A stretch of DNA of 58,122 bases from Candidatus Sumerlaeota bacterium. Lineage in GTDB: Bacteria > Sumerlaeota > Sumerlaeia > MWCT01 > JAUWMI01. Below are positions 37,505 to 53,323 of the stretch, piece by piece. Positions within the stretch are counted from its first letter, which is position 1. The number at the start of each line of letters is the position of its first letter. Where the stretch lies: contig JAUWMI010000030.1 in assembly GCA_030613245.1 (NCBI GenBank), positions 1 to 58,122 on the forward strand. Direction: 5' to 3'. The notes beneath the pieces are model-generated. The model made no database searches, was not told the DNA's origin, and saw only the letters and a program-made list of their open reading frames with translations. The translations under genes were made by a program, and so were the position numbers.

Positions 37505-38332
37505 ATCGAATCTTCCTTATTTCCCCAGGGAATTGATACCTTTGAAGGGAGACTCATAAACTCCGCATCAAAAATATCTTTCATATATATCTGACGGATA
37601 TTCCCTGTAGTTTCTTACAGAGTCTCTTTATTTTTTTTGGCTCTTTGTCAGATAGGTTAGCAAGAAAGCCTCTGATGTATTGAATAACTTCAGTGTTTTC
37701 ATATCTCGGCAAGTGTACGGCAGTTGCTTGGATCTGTGCCTAATTACGTAATGTGCCTGCTGTGTATTCCCTCTTCACCATCCAACAGGATGAGTAGGGG
37801 CGTTTAATTAAACGCCCTTACTATTCAGCCGACCTTTCTCTATTGTTACGATCAAAAAACGCTAACTCATTTGACAAAGAGCCTCTTTTTCTATGATCTT
37901 GTTAATGCATTCATAGCCCCCTCACCCCTTCCCTCTCGCCTAGGCGAGAGGAGTGAGGTTTACCCGCCTCAGGCGAGGTGAGGTTGAAAATGCGCCTTGT
38001 GCGTAGGGATTGTCTCTCCCAAAACGCTAACTCATTTGAGAAAGAGCCGTTTTTTTTGAGTGCGGCAATTTGTTCCAGGTTTTCTCATGCTATGCGGAAA
38101 TGGGAAAAATATAGACAGACGATATGAACAAAGATGGAAGAGAAATCAAGTGCAAAAATGGGGGACGAATGCTATTATTTAATTATTTCGCTGCTCGGCA
38201 TTTCTTGATAAGATGATCATAGCATACGGCGTGCTATGATCTCCAGCCTGGATATGATGCAGAGACTGCTCATGGGCGGCAGATGGAGCTCTGACGCCGC
38301 CGAAAATGGCCTGTCCCCTTTTCGTCTATGGC
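37505..38332. repeat. 828-base repeat-rich spacer with MITE-like inverted repeat
   Basis: No gene supported. A 23-base element occurs three times: inverted at 37639-37661 and direct at 37861-37883 and 38026-38048 (GCTAACTCATTTGACAAAGA core). The first two form the ends of a 245-bp inverted-repeat unit. It also contains a GTAGGGGCG palindrome (37794-37821) and, at 37929-38010, the inverted copy of 21010-21085. Confidence 0.75.
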
Positions 38333-39061
38333 TCACTTATTTATTCCGGCCGCATCTAGGAGTTGTCGGATCATTCGGCGGAACCGCGCCTTGACGTCAT
38401 CGATATCCTGTTGGTGAGTAATGTAGACGCGGTCATGTGACGCGGTATCACCTAATTGCTTTATTTCAATCATGGTCTTTGGAGTGTTCCGCCCAACCGT
38501 AATGTTCTTGTCGATCCGGATGGTTGAAATGAGTTTTTCTAGGTTGAAGAACACTCCGCTACTCTGAATATCATGAACTCGTCCTGACGAGATGTACACT
38601 TCGATAATCAAAGATTCCATCAGTCGACGACATAGAGTAGCACAGGCATCGTAAAAGCCGTAATCATAAGTACCGTTAATCTGATGAACCATTTTCTCAA
38701 GATAGACACGTGTTCCATCTACCCATTCTTTTGGAATAATTTGATCGGTAACGTCAACTTTCTTGATTTTGAGGAGAGCTCCGTACTTGTGATCCAGTTC
38801 AGATAGACGGCGGAGGTCCAGTTGAAAAGAACCAGACCTTCGGCCACGAACGGTGAACCTGTTCTTAGTAAGGTGGGTACGCAGCCTTGTCACATTGGCT
38901 TTCGGGAAACCCTCATCAAAGAGGTCGTTGGCCAATTCAGCCGCGGTTCTTTCGTCAAATTCCTGTGTTTGTGTGTAATACCATAACAAAGCAATCGCCC
39001 TGTCAGCGTGCGAGAGCGAGAGTTTGGCCAATTGTCGCGCAAAACCTTTCCTACTCTCCAC
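38333..39061 (-). CDS. Winged-helix plus DUF4145/HEPN-like protein, unknown
   Basis: 242 residues. The N-terminal 90 residues look like a winged helix (ALLWYYTQTQEFDERTAAEL and RLRTHLTKNRFTVRGRRSG). The C-terminal half resembles the DUF4145/HEPN-like helical fold: CATLCRRLMESLIIEVY, FFNLEKLI and the closing IKQLGDTASHDRVYI. It overlaps the preceding gene by 11 bp, so the two form a coupled pair. It lies downstream of an attC-like site, in the place of an integron cassette gene. Such pairs are frequent in accessory DNA; a defence role is only a guess. No Rx4-6H ribonuclease motif is evident. Confidence 0.65.
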   Translation of the reverse strand: MESRKGFARQLAKLSLSHADRAIALLWYYTQTQEFDERTAAELANDLFDEGFPKANVTRLRTHLTKNRFTVRGRRSGSFQLDLRRLSELDHKYGALLKIKKVDVTDQIIPKEWVDGTRVYLEKMVHQINGTYDYGFYDACATLCRRLMESLIIEVYISSGRVHDIQSSGVFFNLEKLISTIRIDKNITVGRNTPKTMIEIKQLGDTASHDRVYITHQQDIDDVKARFRRMIRQLLDAAGINK

Positions 39062-39590
39062 TCTCGGTTGCCTCCAGCACAGCCTTTAGGTATTGAACTC
39101 CTCTCCTAGAAAGTTTATACCGTACGGGCTGCCCTTTCTTTTTGATCTTATCGCCTATGACATACCTTGATGCAGTGCCTGATAATGTCTTGGAAACGTT
39201 CGGCAGAGCAATAGAAATACCGAGGTCAGTAATTACTTTCCTGATTTCACCAGATGTCATCCCGAAAGCATTATCCATGTATTGGTGGATGGTATAAAGA
39301 GGCAACAAGACCCTATCAACCTGACCGGACCTATCTAAGATTTGTTTTTCTATTGCCTCGGCTTCGCTACATTCTTTAACTTGGTTTACGATCTCTGCCA
39401 AGCGCAGACTTTGAGCGTCAGAACTCTTATTGGTTATATCCTTGGCAAATGCTTTCTTCTTCCGAGAATCTTTTGCACCTGGCTTGGCTTCCTGTGCGCT
39501 ATAGAACTGAAGGAGCTTATGGATTTCTTCATGCGTGCCCTCGATTTGCACTGATGTGCCATTGGGGAGTTTAAGAGATGCTTTGGCCAT
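39051..39590 (-). CDS. Winged-helix-like protein, partner of the downstream gene
   Basis: 179 residues. ATG 39590 has AAAGGAGAAG upstream and lies 29 bp from the GTTAGAC core site, as in integron cassettes. The N-terminal 40 residues look like a small beta domain, the middle is Lys-rich, and the last 80 residues form a winged-helix segment (MTSGEIRKVITDLGISIALP, PVRYKLSRRGVQYLKAVLEA). The same wing pattern appears in its partner, so both may bind DNA. No named family recognised. Confidence 0.6.
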   Translation of the reverse strand: MAKASLKLPNGTSVQIEGTHEEIHKLLQFYSAQEAKPGAKDSRKKKAFAKDITNKSSDAQSLRLAEIVNQVKECSEAEAIEKQILDRSGQVDRVLLPLYTIHQYMDNAFGMTSGEIRKVITDLGISIALPNVSKTLSGTASRYVIGDKIKKKGQPVRYKLSRRGVQYLKAVLEATESGE

Positions 39591-39618: not shown

Positions 39619-39696
39619 GTCTAACGGGATGCATCACAGGCGTGGGTGAGGCGCCATGCGCCCTTATCTCCGTCTGTCTGCATGCAATTGTTAGCC
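39619..39696 (-). other. attC-like integron recombination site A
   Basis: Read leftward it has R'' GGCTAAC (39696-39690), an L'' box, a central GGCGC-CAT-GCGCC hairpin (39650-39662), an L' box and R' GTTAGAC (39625-39619), which fits the GTTRRRY consensus. The two arms pair through TGCA and ACAG.CG with extrahelical bases, as attC sites do. It lies 50 bp after the fused prephenate dehydratase gene. Confidence 0.65.
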
Positions 39697-39746: not shown

Positions 39747-41180
39747 TCATACGCTTCGGAATTTCTCAAGTACATAATCTAATGCATCCTTTGCTCCTAG
39801 GGGACGGGTTGAGTTACCCGCCCGGATGAAGAAGGTCTGTATCCCTTTATCGATAAACCAGGCAGGCTTGTTACTTCTATCGATCCTTATCGCGCAGACC
39901 CTTTTGGCTTTGTATGTGAGGAACTCAGGATGTACCTTCTGGCAGTACTCTTCGCCAATTGTGTCTAGGACGACTTGGTAGAGAGTGGAAAGGAATTCAT
40001 CCTCATTTCTCTTGCCAAGTAGGCTGATGTCCTTCTCAATCCCAAAAGCCTCCCCATCGTCAGCAACGCCGATGAACAAATACCCTCCGTCGCTGTTCAT
40101 GAAACCGGCAAGTGTTTTACCAACAACCTTTCCCAACTCTTTGTTTGCGCCCCTAGTTTTTATGTCGTAGCGGAGCGTTGCCTTGAACTCGACCAATTCC
40201 GACTCGCCTTTTGCAATAATGTCTAAGAGAGAAGGCGGTTCCTGGGGCCTATGCCCCGTTGGCATTGTTGGCCGAGCCTCTCTTGGTGGAGGACCGAGAG
40301 GGAATGCCGCATAGCTCCCGAGCATCTTCCGAGACAGAATAACATCCCTTCTGGCGCTTAAACGATCAACGAGGTTTTGAAATCGTGGGGTGGCACCCCC
40401 CTCGTCTATGTCGATAACGAACCAGTCTTTGAAATCCAGATCGAAAAGCCTGCTATCGCGTATGGGCAAGGTCTTGATACTCGATAGATTGACATTCTCG
40501 GCCGATACAAGTTGTAATGCGCGAACCAGCGTGCCTGCCTTGTCTGGAATAATTATTGCAAACGTGGACTTGTTGCATGCTGCTGTAACTTTGGTATGAG
40601 TAGCGCTAATTGAAACGAAACGGGTCACATTTCTTGAGAAGTCTTGGATGTCTGGACTGAGTTTTACAAGACCGGCTTGCCGGGCGAGAACATTGCTACC
40701 TATGCAGGCGCCAGTACTATCCTGTAATAGCTTTTCTGCCGCGTCGGCGGTGCTGATGGTATATTCAATCCTGACGTTAGGCAGATTCTGGGATATCCAG
40801 TCAGCGCATTGGAGGTAGGGCTGGCGATGAGTGTACAAGGTCCTCAGCTGCGATACTTCCATCTTGGTCCGAGCAAGAAGGTGATGATTTATTGGAATGA
40901 ACATTTCTCCTGTTATCTTAACTCGAACGTCGCTTTTTATTGCCTCAAACGGCTGATCTACTAACAGCTGAAAAGTTTCCGCTATAGGGCCAGTGCTGGA
41001 GTTTTCAACAGGGAGGACCCCGTAGTGCATCTGCGCTGTATATACCATCCCAAAGACATCCCTGAAGGACGATTGATAGAACAACTCGGCGCGTGGAAAC
41101 ATTTTCGATGCGGCTTCATGGGAGAAAGTGTACTTCGGCCCCAAGTACACTACCTTTGTACGAGTGCGTTTCTTTGGCAT
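39747..41180 (-). CDS. Fusion: prephenate dehydratase-like / ACT / Schlafen AlbA_2 domain protein
   Basis: 477 residues in three parts. (1) Residues 10-190 are a full prephenate-dehydratase fold: VYLGPKYTFSHEA, GVLPVENSSTGPIAETFQLL, and NVTRFVSIS with the TRF catalytic triad at 186-188. (2) Residues 205-290 are an ACT domain in which the Phe-binding ESRP motif has become KTLP and GALY has become GTLV. (3) After a Pro-rich linker (295-315), residues 322-475 form an AlbA_2/Schlafen domain: GESELVEFKATL, KTLAGFMNSDGGYLFIGVADD, FFIRAGNSTRPL. AlbA_2 domains occur in Schlafen-like regulators and in defence proteins. The gene starts 17 bp inside a GTTAGCC core and is followed by an attC-like site, so it looks like a mobile cassette rather than a phenylalanine gene. 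Function undetermined: ligand sensing coupled to nucleic-acid action is the best guess. Confidence 0.85.
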   Translation of the reverse strand: MPKKRTRTKVVYLGPKYTFSHEAASKMFPRAELFYQSSFRDVFGMVYTAQMHYGVLPVENSSTGPIAETFQLLVDQPFEAIKSDVRVKITGEMFIPINHHLLARTKMEVSQLRTLYTHRQPYLQCADWISQNLPNVRIEYTISTADAAEKLLQDSTGACIGSNVLARQAGLVKLSPDIQDFSRNVTRFVSISATHTKVTAACNKSTFAIIIPDKAGTLVRALQLVSAENVNLSSIKTLPIRDSRLFDLDFKDWFVIDIDEGGATPRFQNLVDRLSARRDVILSRKMLGSYAAFPLGPPPREARPTMPTGHRPQEPPSLLDIIAKGESELVEFKATLRYDIKTRGANKELGKVVGKTLAGFMNSDGGYLFIGVADDGEAFGIEKDISLLGKRNEDEFLSTLYQVVLDTIGEEYCQKVHPEFLTYKAKRVCAIRIDRSNKPAWFIDKGIQTFFIRAGNSTRPLGAKDALDYVLEKFRSV

Positions 41181-41197: not shown

Positions 41198-41204
41198 GGC
41201 TAAC
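41198..41204 (-). other. Cassette 5' boundary (GTTAGCC core site)
   Basis: On the minus strand GTTAGCCAGG precedes the fusion gene by 17 bases. Its first bases (GTTAGCCA) are the exact complement of the R'' arm TGGCTAAC at 39689-39696, as expected for the two ends of one integron cassette. Confidence 0.55.
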
Positions 41205-41613
41205 CATACCATATATAGATTCTCGATAAAGCCTTTGACTGGCAGTTTAGCGCCATAACGATGCCTATTAAAAAGTGATATGGCTGCTGGAATGGCGGTT
41301 TTCCATTAATCTCTTATATTTGAGATGGGAGTCTTATATGGTCTCTATAAAACACGCCTGGCATTGGATCATTTCACGGGTAGTCACGCGAAGTCCGTAT
41401 CACTTTCCCGGCTGAATTCAGCAAATGAAAAAAATGATGCCGGTTTAGGGTTTTCAACGGGACTAACAGATAACAACATCATAAAAGGGCGAGAGTGTCA
41501 AGTTTTTTCCTTTTTTGCCAATCTGGATGAGGGCATAATATAGTCCAAATTTTGCAGTTGAGTTTAAAGAAAGTGACAAGATAACGATGCAAAATACAGA
41601 AAAACCTTTGATT

Positions 41614-42300
41614 AGTCTTTTACCACGAAGGTCACGAAGGCCACGAAGATTTCTTGACAAAAAAATGACAGAAATTATTAGACAGGATTAACAAAATTAA
41701 CAGGATGAAAAACATAAAGAATGCCGTCAATCCCCGGTAAATCCTATAAGGAGAAGGGAAACAGTTCATAATTTTTCCCAATTTTGCAGCATTTCTTCGT
41801 GTGCTTTGTGTCTTTGTGGTGATTAACTTGGATTAGTATTTTACCACGAAGGTCACGAAGGCCACGAAGATTTCTTGAAAAGAAAAAGAAAAAAACAATT
41901 AGACAGGATTAACAAGATTAACAGGATGAAAAAATCTAAAGAATCCCCTCAATCTCTGATCAATCCTATAAGGAGAAGGGAAACAGTTCATAATCTTTCC
42001 CAATTTCGCAGTTTTTCTTCGTGTGCTTTGTGTCTTTGTGGTGATTAACTTGGATTAGTCTTTTACCACGAAGGTCACGAAGGCCACGAAGATTTCTTGA
42101 CAAAAAAATGACAAAAATTATTAGACAGGATTAACAAGATTAACACGATAAAAGAATCTAAAGAATGACCTTACTCCATGGTAAATGCTGTAAATCATGT
42201 AAATCTTGTAAATCATGTCCAAAAAATTAAAACGAAGTACAAAAATTATTAGACAGGATTAACAAGATTAACAGGATGAAAAACATAAACAATGCCGTCA
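41614..42300. repeat. Tandem ~222-bp AT-rich units, two full and two partial
   Basis: Units begin with TTTTACCACGAAGGTCACGA and carry TTAGACAGGATTAACAAGAT. Full copies are at about 41614-41838 and 41839-42058, and partial copies start near 42059 and 42240. The nine-base direct repeat CACGAAGG(T/C) is nested inside. The spacer 41205-42352 holds no supportable gene, and this is not a CRISPR because the units are long and lack spacers. Confidence 0.85.
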
Positions 42301-42304
42301 ATCC

Positions 42305-50221: not shown

Positions 50222-52033
50222 TCAGAACTGAATACAGAAAAGTTCTTTTTCTAGTTTTTCTAATTCGGCGAGTAATTTATCTTTCACACTTTTTGATTCT
50301 TCTATCACGGTAGAGAATAGATTTTTATAGTAATTAATTCCATCTTGTAAATTATTTTGAAAGGACTTAAAATATTTAATTTGTTTTTCCCTAAGTGGTT
50401 TAAGACTTTCCTCAACCATTTTTCTTAAATAATCCACATACATATCTAATTCTTTGACGAACATATTTGGACGACAATTATCGTTCAAAATATTTATCCT
50501 ACCATATATATGAGCTACCATTTCTTGCAGCGAAACAACCCTTGAAAAATAAGCTAAATTCGGCCCCGGACAAATAGAAACCCCGTTTCCTTCTACCGTT
50601 GTGTCCAGGTTATTTACCAGCAAAGCCGATGTACCCAGCCCAACACAAATGCATGCTTTTTCAACAATTTTACTAAATAAATTTTCATGTTCATCTTGGT
50701 CAAGAGATTCTTGCTCAAGTTTCTTGATTTTTAGATTTTGATATTGACGTGAAGCCGTGCAAATAGCTTGTTTGGTAAATTCTGTATTTGAGATAAGAAG
50801 TTTTTTGGGACAAGCACTTCCGGGTCTTCCTCTTTCTATTAATACCTGTTTTTGTTCATCTTTGGTATTGCCCTTTATAGTATTAAAAGGAATTCCGAGA
50901 GGAGAAATATTACTTAAATAAAGATCTTCCCCTTTTGTATTAGTCAATAATCCAAGTGTGGTTTGATCTACATTGGTAACTTCCGGTACCAAAAGAAACG
51001 GAGAAGCCCATCCCGTTGAAGCAACTTTGTAATAATTGAAGAGAAAATCTTGCTCTTTTGAATTACTAATACCGCCTTGAACGGTAATTTTAGTGTATAA
51101 AGGAGTGTCGGAAAAAGGTTTGTTTCTCTTTTTCAGGGCTGTGACAAATAGTTCATGAGTTAAGTGGATAAGTTCTTCTTTGTGCTTTTTGAATTCTTCT
51201 AAGATTGGTCCTAACAGGTAACCTTCGCTGGCAAAACAATGACCGCCGCAATTTAGACCTGATTCAATACGATACTCTGATACCCACAAGCCTTTTTTTG
51301 CTAGAAATCTGCCTTGTGTTAAAGCTGACCGATAGTCACTAACTTTTAATATGATCCCTTTTTTTAGAAAGCCATTCTCGTCGGGATAAAAATCCTCAAA
51401 ATTTGCCATGTAGCTATATAATCGTGCATTTATACCCGCCGATAAAACGATGGATGAATTCAAATCACTTAAAGCAAATCCGCGTAAGGCAGCATGCCCG
51501 TCGTTATGCTCAATTGAAAGTTCTTTTCCCCCGTTGAAATTTGCCTTATCAAGTTTGGTCATGATATTTACATCTATTGAACCTACAAACAAATTTTCTC
51601 TTAACCAGTTTTGCATCTTTTTTACGGTTTCATTATCTTTAGTTTGAAGCATTTTATTATAAACATGCCTTAACTTTGAATCATCGGGCAACATTTCTAA
51701 ATATTTAATGATTTCGCTTCCTTTTTCAAATGAAGAGGCTCTCAATTCTTTAAATTTCTTCTTCACAATATTGTCGATTAGATTTAAATATGAAGTAATT
51801 CTTCTAGCCCGGAAATCGTCTTCGCTTTTGCCAATAGCAACAAAAGGCATATTCATTTTTTTACAATAAAATCCTCGCATTTTTTCCATAAGAGAGTCGT
51901 CCACAAGTGAAATTACAGAAGAAATTCCGTATTTAGCAACTTTGATTGGCGTATCCATAGAAAAGCCAATTCCCATTACTGGAATATGAAATTTATGAAC
52001 AGTCATTTTTGTTATCAGCCTCTTAATATTCAT
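50222..52033 (-). CDS. Large AT-rich protein with TIM-barrel flavoprotein-like N-terminus, unknown
   Basis: 603 residues. Residues 10-45 (FHIPVMGIGFSMDTPIKVAK, then GISSVISLVDD) recall the first strand-loop units of nitronate monooxygenase / FMN TIM barrels. Later blocks include SGLNCGGHCFASEGYLLGPI, TKITVQGGISNSKEQDFLFN, SPFLLVPEV and GRPGSACPKKLL. These give three conserved-looking Cys sites (CGGHC, ACPKK, ICTAS). I recall similar uncharacterised proteins in Bacteroidota, but cannot name a function. GC content is far below that of its neighbours and codons are A/T-ended, which points to recent transfer. It is bounded by an 18-bp inverted repeat and attC-like arms: a large integron cassette. 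Confidence 0.75.
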   Translation of the reverse strand: MNIKRLITKMTVHKFHIPVMGIGFSMDTPIKVAKYGISSVISLVDDSLMEKMRGFYCKKMNMPFVAIGKSEDDFRARRITSYLNLIDNIVKKKFKELRASSFEKGSEIIKYLEMLPDDSKLRHVYNKMLQTKDNETVKKMQNWLRENLFVGSIDVNIMTKLDKANFNGGKELSIEHNDGHAALRGFALSDLNSSIVLSAGINARLYSYMANFEDFYPDENGFLKKGIILKVSDYRSALTQGRFLAKKGLWVSEYRIESGLNCGGHCFASEGYLLGPILEEFKKHKEELIHLTHELFVTALKKRNKPFSDTPLYTKITVQGGISNSKEQDFLFNYYKVASTGWASPFLLVPEVTNVDQTTLGLLTNTKGEDLYLSNISPLGIPFNTIKGNTKDEQKQVLIERGRPGSACPKKLLISNTEFTKQAICTASRQYQNLKIKKLEQESLDQDEHENLFSKIVEKACICVGLGTSALLVNNLDTTVEGNGVSICPGPNLAYFSRVVSLQEMVAHIYGRINILNDNCRPNMFVKELDMYVDYLRKMVEESLKPLREKQIKYFKSFQNNLQDGINYYKNLFSTVIEESKSVKDKLLAELEKLEKELFCIQF

Positions 52034-52130: not shown

Positions 52131-52148
52131 GAAACTTGAATTCTAACA
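52131..52148. repeat. 18-bp inverted repeat, right end of the 603-codon cassette
   Basis: GAAACTTGAATTCTAACA, the exact inverse of 50192-50209. It overlaps the R' core (TTCTAAC) of the attC-like site at 52141-52210. Confidence 0.9.
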
Positions 52149-52210
52149 TTGAGCTCAGGCGTTCGAACTTGGCGCGCCAAATTCAAATCGCCTGCAGTGA
52201 ATGGTTCGGT
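52141..52210 (-). other. attC-like integron recombination site D
   Basis: Leftward: R'' ACCGAAC, L'' ACTGCAGGCG, a palindromic terminal stem around TTGGCGCGCCAA, L' CGCCTGAGCTC, R' GTTAGAA. The stop codon of the upstream small gene is only 6 bp away, as in compact cassettes. It shares ACATTGAGCTCAGGCG with site E. Confidence 0.7.
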
Positions 52211-52216
52211 TCCTGT

Positions 52217-52468
52217 TCATTCCGAATTGCTTCTCTTCTTGCCTCGAAACATGCCGAGTATGCTCGAAAGAACAGCTCTGTCGGACACTTCGGCTGCTTT
52301 TTTCAAGATGATGGCCAAGAATGCACCAGTAATTATGCCAATGCCCAGCAGTCTGAGTTCGCCGTAAGGCAAGAAGACAACAACCAAACCCAGCAAGGAG
52401 GGGATGGCTAACGCAAGAACCGTTGAATAAGGAGGTGGAATTCTGTCCAGTTTCCCAAAGATGTTCAT
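52217..52468 (-). CDS. Small two-helix membrane protein (cassette gene)
   Basis: ATG 52468 has AAGGAGGG five bases upstream. The 83 residues begin MNIFGKLDRIPPPYSTVLAL and contain two hydrophobic stretches (VLALAIPSLLGLVVVFLPYG, LLGIGIITGAFLAIIL) and a basic tail (FRGKKRSNSE). The reading frame extends further upstream but would run through attC-like site E, so the ATG with the ribosome binding site is preferred. Such short membrane proteins are common in integron cassettes. Function unknown. Confidence 0.7.
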   Translation of the reverse strand: MNIFGKLDRIPPPYSTVLALAIPSLLGLVVVFLPYGELRLLGIGIITGAFLAIILKKAAEVSDRAVLSSILGMFRGKKRSNSE

Positions 52469-52495
52469 ACGACCCTCCTTCCTGTTTTTCCTAGA

Positions 52496-52547
52496 ACCGG
52501 ACATTGAGCTCAGGCGCCAAACGGTCGGCTCAAGCGCTTGGTTAGGC
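52496..52547 (-). other. attC-like integron recombination site E
   Basis: Leftward: R'' GCCTAAC, L'' TTGAGCCGACCG, a short loop, L' CGCCTGAGCTCAA, R' GTCCGGT (degenerate). TTGAG pairs with CTCAA. The base order strongly resembles classic attC arms (GCCTAAC followed by a TTGAGCCGAC-like L''). At 52 bp it is short. Confidence 0.6.
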
Positions 52548-52578
52548 AGGAATTCCCGACCTGGAACAGTGAACACGT

Positions 52579-52746
52579 TTACATCTGCGAGTATAAACGC
52601 GTCACCAGCAGATAAGAAAGCAAAAACAGCGCGATTGCAATGATAAAGTAGATTGTCGATTTCAGGTACGAGGTCCTTATGACTCTCCGATTCAGGAACT
52701 TGGCAATCTTAACCCATTTCGAAGATGTAGATAGTCTGTGTTCCAT
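52579..52746 (-). CDS. Small single-helix membrane protein (cassette gene)
   Basis: ATG 52746 follows GGAGGCGGAGAGA. 55 residues: a basic leader (MEHRLSTSSKWVKIAKFLNR) and one membrane helix (IYFIIAIALFLLSYLLVTRL) near the C-terminus. It precedes attC-like site E by 31 bp. No family recognised. Confidence 0.55.
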   Translation of the reverse strand: MEHRLSTSSKWVKIAKFLNRRVIRTSYLKSTIYFIIAIALFLLSYLLVTRLYSQM

Positions 52747-52966
52747 TCTCTCCGCCTCCGTTCTGGATTCATGCTTCTCTTGCCCTGAGAATCTGCCGGT
52801 GCCAGCCGGCGTTTTGGCACGCCGTGCATCCGCCGGACTCCGAAAACCCCGGCCACGCCGATACAAAACATAACGTGTAAGTCATCGTTGTTTTGAAATC
52901 GTTAACATAACTAACGGAAAAGAGTATCCTAAGCCTGGAGGTTCTTTCAAGTTCTTTTCTTCTTTG

Positions 52967-53185
52967 CTAGAACATGACACAGTAGCCTTTGCTAGCCTTA
53001 ACTTTCTCCACCCGGATGCTCATACGCCCGCTAGCGATGGTCGAGTCTTTAAGCCGCGTGATTTTCCCTTGGGACGTGTGGCCAAAAAGCTGGTGGAAGG
53101 GATCCTGTTTCAAATCCAGCGGAAGGTATATGAGCGGTATGGAAGCATCATACAACAGATGCCCTGCCTTCAGGCCATCTTGCAC
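52967..53185 (-). CDS. Hypothetical 72-residue protein, low confidence
   Basis: A GTG start 4 bp inside the GTTAGCC core of attC-like site B opens 72 codons (VQDGLKAGHLLYDASIPLIY onward). The position fits a cassette gene. There is no room for a ribosome binding site, and no attC-like site with matching arms follows, so the call is weak. Confidence 0.3.
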   Translation of the reverse strand: MQDGLKAGHLLYDASIPLIYLPLDLKQDPFHQLFGHTSQGKITRLKDSTIASGRMSIRVEKVKASKGYCVMF

Positions 53186-53189
53186 TTTG

Positions 53190-53323
53190 GGCTAACGTAA
53201 AAGCTCACCAGCGTTGCGGTTACTTGACACAAGTCTTGACAAAAAAAACAAATAGACAAAAAATACTACAAACCGTGAATTTCATGCCGCAGCTAGCAAC
53301 GTCTGGTGCAGCAATTGTTAGGC
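53190..53323 (-). other. attC-like integron recombination site B
   Basis: Leftward: R'' GCCTAAC (53323-53317), L'' TTGCTGCACCAGACG, an AT-rich loop of about 85 bases, L' CGCTGGTGAGC, R' GTTAGCC (53196-53190). CTGGTG(C)AGC pairs with GCTG(C)ACCAG. The length (134 bp) is at the upper end of known attC sites. The stop of the HD-domain gene is 6 bp away. Confidence 0.6.

Follow-up and report, generated by a model that had tools for sequence, protein, structure and literature searches.

What does a prephenate dehydratase (PDT) do with a Schlafen-type AlbA_2 domain attached to its C-terminus? The question is raised by one gene of a Candidatus Sumerlaeota bacterium, whose draft genome comprises 4.29 Mb in 97 contigs. 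The gene lies in a stretch of 58,122 nt that was analyzed as a whole and is referred to here as the window. AlbA_2 domains are widespread in bacteria and the triggers that activate them are mostly unknown; the input part of this fusion has an allosteric enzyme fold that ranks among the best understood, its ligands and dimer geometry being known. AlbA_2 gating and output thus become testable with simple chemicals. If the reading developed below is true, a mobile cassette unites a nucleic-acid effector with a biosynthetic enzyme whose feedback domain has been rewired.

Domain organization of the fusion protein

The fusion gene occupies positions 39747..41180 on the minus strand. Read from 41180 to 39747, it starts with ATG and runs for 477 codons (477 aa) with no internal stop; the plus-strand reading of the same interval is interrupted by many stops. 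These limits coincide exactly with those given in a first-pass annotation made from the sequence alone, which had left the strand unstated, and the PDT domain with a TRF triad and the C-terminal AlbA_2 domain that it described were both recovered by profile searches. The PDT catalytic domain spans residues 10-193 (40602..41153, minus strand; Pfam E=8.5e-51), with TRF at residues 186-188. It is followed at about residues 205-293 (40302..40568, minus strand) by a divergent ACT domain that has GTLV and KTLP motifs, an insertion past KTLP and a conserved LGSY end; the ACT profile itself matches weakly at residues 209-248 (E=0.004, under the Pfam gathering score). A Pro-rich linker at about residues 294-318 (40227..40301, minus strand), evident in the translation and of low confidence in the structure model, connects LGSY in frame, with no frameshift, to the start of the AlbA_2 domain. 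The latter covers residues 326-461 (39798..40205, minus strand; Pfam E=3.7e-15) and carries E326, E331 and D374. A PDB sequence search matched residues 8-294 to solved PDTs and residues 332-389 to human SLFN12, and GC3 is alike in the two halves of the gene (0.529 and 0.550). The three-domain reading of the protein is right, far beyond chance.

A conserved catalytic core and a changed ACT pocket

The fusion protein scores 172.8 bits against the PDT profile (Pfam cut-off 25.2), and it misses all the NCBIfam PDT equivalog cut-offs (165 vs 219, 133 vs 577 and 106 vs 359 bits). A chorismate mutase (CM) domain ahead of PDT is absent. The comparison set comprised 12 PDTs, of which eleven belong to other genomes and the twelfth to the genome of the fusion itself; for each sequence, the positions invariant across all the remaining PDTs were counted. 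In the catalytic half of the fusion protein, 23 of 26 such positions are retained, and the three departures (G29P, V56L and D71Q) fall outside the VENS and NxTRF motifs, both of which are intact. The ACT half keeps 10 of its 16 invariant positions and loses 6; the other 12 PDTs lose 0-1 each. Among the losses are S237T and R238L within ESRP, named as an ACT ligand motif (PMC10845154), and residue 236 is K in the fusion where the other PDTs have E or Q. The ligand-binding pair of GALV and ESRP is therefore represented by GTLV and KTLP, the latter at residues 236-239, just as had been claimed. The pattern suggests a preserved enzyme core beside an altered Phe pocket, a combination that counts equally against a dead, sensor-only enzyme and against an ordinary Phe-inhibited PDT. 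With so little lost from the catalytic core, the PDT half may still be an enzyme, and describing it as only a sensor may be wrong.

The same genome has, on another contig and beside hisC, an ordinary CM-PDT-ACT gene whose product is 31% identical. The fusion is thus an extra PDT, dispensable for Phe synthesis. No aromatic-pathway gene was recognized among the scanned proteins of the window.

The AlbA_2 domain and its relatives

The AlbA_2 half scores 56.9 bits against its profile (cut-off 25.3) and is the sole AlbA_2 domain in the host genome. Across an alignment of 57 AlbA_2 sequences, E326 and E331 never vary, and at least 90% of the sequences have D374. The three residues match in pattern E205, E210 and D248 of SLFN13, mutation of which diminished tRNA cleavage (PMC5862951). 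AlphaFold2 modelled the domain with a pLDDT of 97-98; the PDT half, which had no homologues in its alignment, was mostly under 50 and the model is unusable there. Foldseek matched the AlbA_2 model to 3lmm, the SAMD9 tRNase domain and SLFN5, SLFN11, SLFN12, SLFN13 and SLFN14. Judged by its residues, the domain carries the Schlafen E/E/D carboxylate triad, and RNA cleavage is a predicted activity only; bacterial AlbA_2 domains are often described merely as nucleic-acid-binding (e.g., PMC6299218).

An alignment of the AlbA_2 subfamily was run against 84,980 species genomes; at least 523 relatives were confirmed and the best 80 were analyzed. In these best 80 of at least 523, AlbA_2 is always C-terminal and the front part varies. 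One or two transmembrane (TM) segments, predicted by simple hydropathy, precede it in 58 of the 80; 16 are GmrSD-type proteins by size, with GmrSD_N found in 15 of the 57 members scanned; and the others have the extracellular solute-binding domain SBP_bac_3 plus a TM helix (3), HsdR (1), a multi-TM part (1) or an unknown part (1). The nearest identity to the fusion AlbA_2 among the best 80 of at least 523 relatives is 45-46%. A tree places the domain, on a long branch (1.12), in a group (98/89) with five 2TM-AlbA_2 proteins from Bacteroidota and Verrucomicrobiota. Three sampled 2TM-AlbA_2 loci have P-type ATPase, CusB/HlyD, P-II, FUR and bestrophin genes nearby, and near-identical copies of 2TM-AlbA_2 loci are shared by different Bacteroidota genera and one MAG that carries the label Phycisphaeraceae. 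With its varied front domains, metal-efflux neighbours and near-identical DNA across genera, the subfamily is a mobile, reusable output module that is not confined to defence. A metal-linked role of AlbA_2 proteins seems worth separate study. Three SBP_bac_3-TM-AlbA_2 proteins of Bacteroidota are apparently one-protein receptors with an amino-acid-binding domain.

An integron-type site behind the gene

The locus had been called mobile-looking, and this impression gains support from an attC-like site of 78 nt at 39619..39696 on the minus strand. The site begins 50 nt past the stop codon of the fusion gene, in the orientation right for a cassette, and shows R'' GGCTAAC followed by AATT, R' GTTAGAC and an imperfect bottom-strand hairpin. 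With its flanks, it folds at -16.1 kcal/mol on the bottom strand vs -14.5 kcal/mol on the top strand. The bottom-strand fold has a z of -1.8 and is equalled by 9 of 200 shuffles. Each shuffled window yields, over its two strands, 0.25 sites with comparable end-to-end pairing, so the fold by itself is suggestive; the position, the orientation and AATT add support. A GTTAGCC at 41198..41204 (minus strand), 17 nt before the ATG, is proposed as a possible 5' boundary of the cassette. The same heptamer serves as R' in two other attC-like sites of the window, at 52406 and 53190; no folded attC was detected in the window ahead of the GTTAGCC at 41198..41204.

These two additional attC-like sites (53190-53323 and 52406-52547, minus strand) share the orientation of the site after the fusion gene and, in minus-strand terms, lie 11-13 kb upstream, and the region 52140-53323 looks like a decayed integron array. 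Both sites and a fragment, CGCCTGAGCTCAATGTTAGAA, near 52150 share repeated pieces on the minus strand of this region. A 603-aa open frame at 50222-52033 (minus strand) has a GC content of 34% and a GC3 of 28% in a window of 50% GC; searches of Pfam, PHROG and NCBIfam gave no match for it, and plasmids no relative. Because it lies directly downstream of the attC-like sites, it is probably a further acquisition, of no recognized kind.

The search for attC sites used one strict pattern across the genome and a script within the window. The sole genome-wide match of the strict pattern is the site after the fusion gene. The integron integrase model TIGR02249 had no match over its cut-off in the host genome, a weak absence in a draft assembly, and Rfam gave chance-level matches only. 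One integrase candidate on a contig of the genome was rejected as a chance frame, since stops interrupt it in frame at three points and a protein-kinase gene overlaps it on the opposite strand. The fusion gene probably represents an integron cassette, either solitary or decayed.

Neighbouring genes and repeats

Two minus-strand genes are found beyond the attC-like site: one of 179 aa (39051..39590) with no confident family, and one of 242 aa (38333..39061) with a DUF4145 (HEPN-clan) domain (Pfam E=3.6e-5). The first-pass annotation had recognized the DUF4145 likeness; the winged helix that it gave to the 179-aa protein was assigned by eye and finds no family match. Relatives of the DUF4145 protein are absent from 147 genomes, plasmids and viral contigs, and those of the 179-aa protein from plasmids. 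Because the pair lies beyond the attC-like site and has no relatives in the sets searched, it is not to be assumed part of the system, and the suggested functional tie to the fusion finds no support; the 179-aa gene is probably outside it. An intergenic array of tandem-like 222-nt copies at 41606..42304 (minus strand), upstream of the fusion gene, carries cttcgtggccttcgtgaccttcgtgg and gttaatcctgtctaa motifs, and MITE-like GCTAACTCATTTGACAAAGAGCC copies (35-nt direct, 23-nt inverted) occur at 37639-38055, downstream of the DUF4145 gene.

Rarity of the fusion

A first search with the whole protein (E<=1e-3) covered 193 genomes and gave matches in 141 of them, each PDT-only or AlbA_2-only. One match, to residues 8-418, resembled a fusion and was set aside as an artefact; it is a normal 356-aa CM-PDT-ACT gene whose stop the alignment overran. 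No full-length match was found in about 600 distinct genomes, those beyond the first 193 being searched at stricter cut-offs that could overlook a fusion which has diverged strongly or arose independently. Nor were relatives of the whole protein found in the searched genome contigs or viral contigs. In phages and plasmids, ordinary PDTs alone match and none spans 80% of the fusion query; a search of viral contigs with a PDT alignment gave no match. In the literature searched, "prephenate dehydratase" never co-occurs with "AlbA_2" or "Schlafen". Within the reach of these searches, the PDT-AlbA_2 architecture is treated here as undescribed. The survey of other genomes for this architecture, which the first-pass annotation had proposed, leaves the fusion a singleton.

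A proposed one-protein switch

Our preferred answer, held tentatively and at somewhat less than an even chance, is that the gene was acquired horizontally, probably as an integron cassette, and that its product is a PDT-ACT sensor switching an AlbA_2 effector. It builds on the domains and motifs, the extra gene copy, the modular AlbA_2 family and the 3' attC-like site. The ligand of the PDT-ACT half would be prephenate or a small molecule related to it, which this half may also convert, and homodimers would form through the ACT domain. A flexible linker, some 25 residues long, would tether a single AlbA_2 lobe to the ACT domain. When a ligand occupies the catalytic cleft or the altered ACT pocket, the ACT dimer would shift and so move the two single-lobed AlbA_2 domains towards or away from each other. 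The change in pairing would in turn switch an RNA- or DNA-directed activity, whether cleavage or nucleic-acid binding, on or off, and the cell might benefit through stress response, regulation or defence. The parts have precedents. PDTs have open and closed states and are regulated by Phe, and GqqA is a dimer joined via its ACT domains with L-Phe at that interface (PMC8192741). Lobes act in pairs in Schlafen RNases such as SLFN13 (PMC5862951), and Schlafen domains can work as multimers, as in the PUCH trimer (PMC10567574).

A small-molecule sensor controlling AlbA_2 had been proposed in the first-pass annotation. The extra PDT, the altered ACT pocket, the occurrence of AlbA_2 behind varied inputs and the integron-type site at the 3' side all speak for it; the kept catalytic core suits an enzyme and speaks against the purely sensory part of the proposal. 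The lack of a second fusion in the data searched also counts against the switch, since a second example would point to selection on the pairing, as does the frequent description of bacterial AlbA_2 domains as nucleic-acid binders and no more. A sensor with an AlbA_2 effector is the best single reading, one that fits the anatomy with a presumed output and trigger, and we would put it a little below even. That a shikimate-branch enzyme has become a ligand-gated, Schlafen-type nuclease switch on an integron cassette, linking the aromatic-amino-acid state to RNA cleavage or a phage response, is a further proposal and an unlikely one.

Alternative explanations

The main rival to the switch is a feedback-resistant "trigger enzyme": a working, Phe-insensitive PDT whose AlbA_2 tail would bind nucleic acid and regulate its own gene or aromatic genes by enzyme occupancy, with no toxin or defence role. 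The catalytic core is conserved, TRF included, the loss of ESRP is expected of a Phe-insensitive enzyme, and the P-type ATPase, CusB/HlyD, FUR or P-II genes near the sampled 2TM-AlbA_2 relatives form a regulation-like setting. On the other hand, the genome already has a canonical PDT copy, no recognized aromatic-pathway gene lies near the fusion within the window, and the carboxylate triad has been kept, of which a tail that merely binds DNA would have no need. We regard the trigger enzyme as rather improbable.

An assembly chimera, or an accidental and non-functional fusion in one strain, would explain why the fusion is known from one draft genome alone, in 97 contigs, and why no relative sharing the PDT-AlbA_2 joint was found; the repeats upstream of the gene would also fit. 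However, ACT and AlbA_2 are joined in frame via the Pro-rich linker with no stop or frameshift, GC3 is similar across the halves, and conserved residues are retained in both. The repeats lie outside the gene, and the attC-like site comes directly after it. Such an origin is quite unlikely.

Least probable of all is an anti-phage or abortive-infection effector in which PDT-ACT would sense a phage-altered aromatic metabolite and free a tRNA-cutting AlbA_2 nuclease. In its favour, the same AlbA_2 family is found on GmrSD and HsdR restriction proteins, an integron-type site is present, and Schlafen RNases as BREX-linked effectors and bacterial Schlafens in anti-phage defence are reported in PMC12839542, which cites a 2025 preprint, but the fusion protein has no PADLOC match at E<=0.01, the scanned window proteins include no recognized restriction or defence gene save the weak DUF4145, and the nearest AlbA_2 relatives examined occupy metal-resistance settings, adjoining metal-efflux genes, all of which tells against the phage link drawn in the first-pass annotation.

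Relation to known systems

As a PDT-ACT sensor coupled to an AlbA_2 effector, the fusion would take its place among the modular proteins with a C-terminal AlbA_2 domain (2TM-, SBP_bac_3-TM-, GmrSD- and HsdR-AlbA_2), with which it shares the subfamily, the position of the domain and the E/E/D residues. It differs from them in its input, a PDT domain being absent from the best 80 of at least 523 relatives. The SBP_bac_3-TM-AlbA_2 proteins of Bacteroidota offer a parallel, in that a small-molecule-binding domain precedes the same AlbA_2 module. The type-II periplasmic-binding-protein fold is common to SBP_bac_3 and PDT.

The front half has the PDT core with TRF and the PDT-then-ACT order of bacterial PheA (CM-PDT-ACT), but lacks CM, has KTLP in place of ESRP, contains extra insertions and has gained AlbA_2. 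GqqA of Komagataeibacter europaeus is likewise a PDT-ACT protein with a second role that can handle small molecules besides prephenate; it keeps PDT activity along with an acyl-homoserine-lactone acylase role and, unlike the fusion, has no nucleic-acid domain (PMC8192741). The AlbA_2 fold and the carboxylate triad are common to the fusion, the Schlafen RNases (SLFN11, SLFN12, SLFN13 and SLFN14) and the SAMD9 tRNase domain. Animal Schlafens have two tandem lobes, whereas the fusion has a single lobe attached to a different partner domain.
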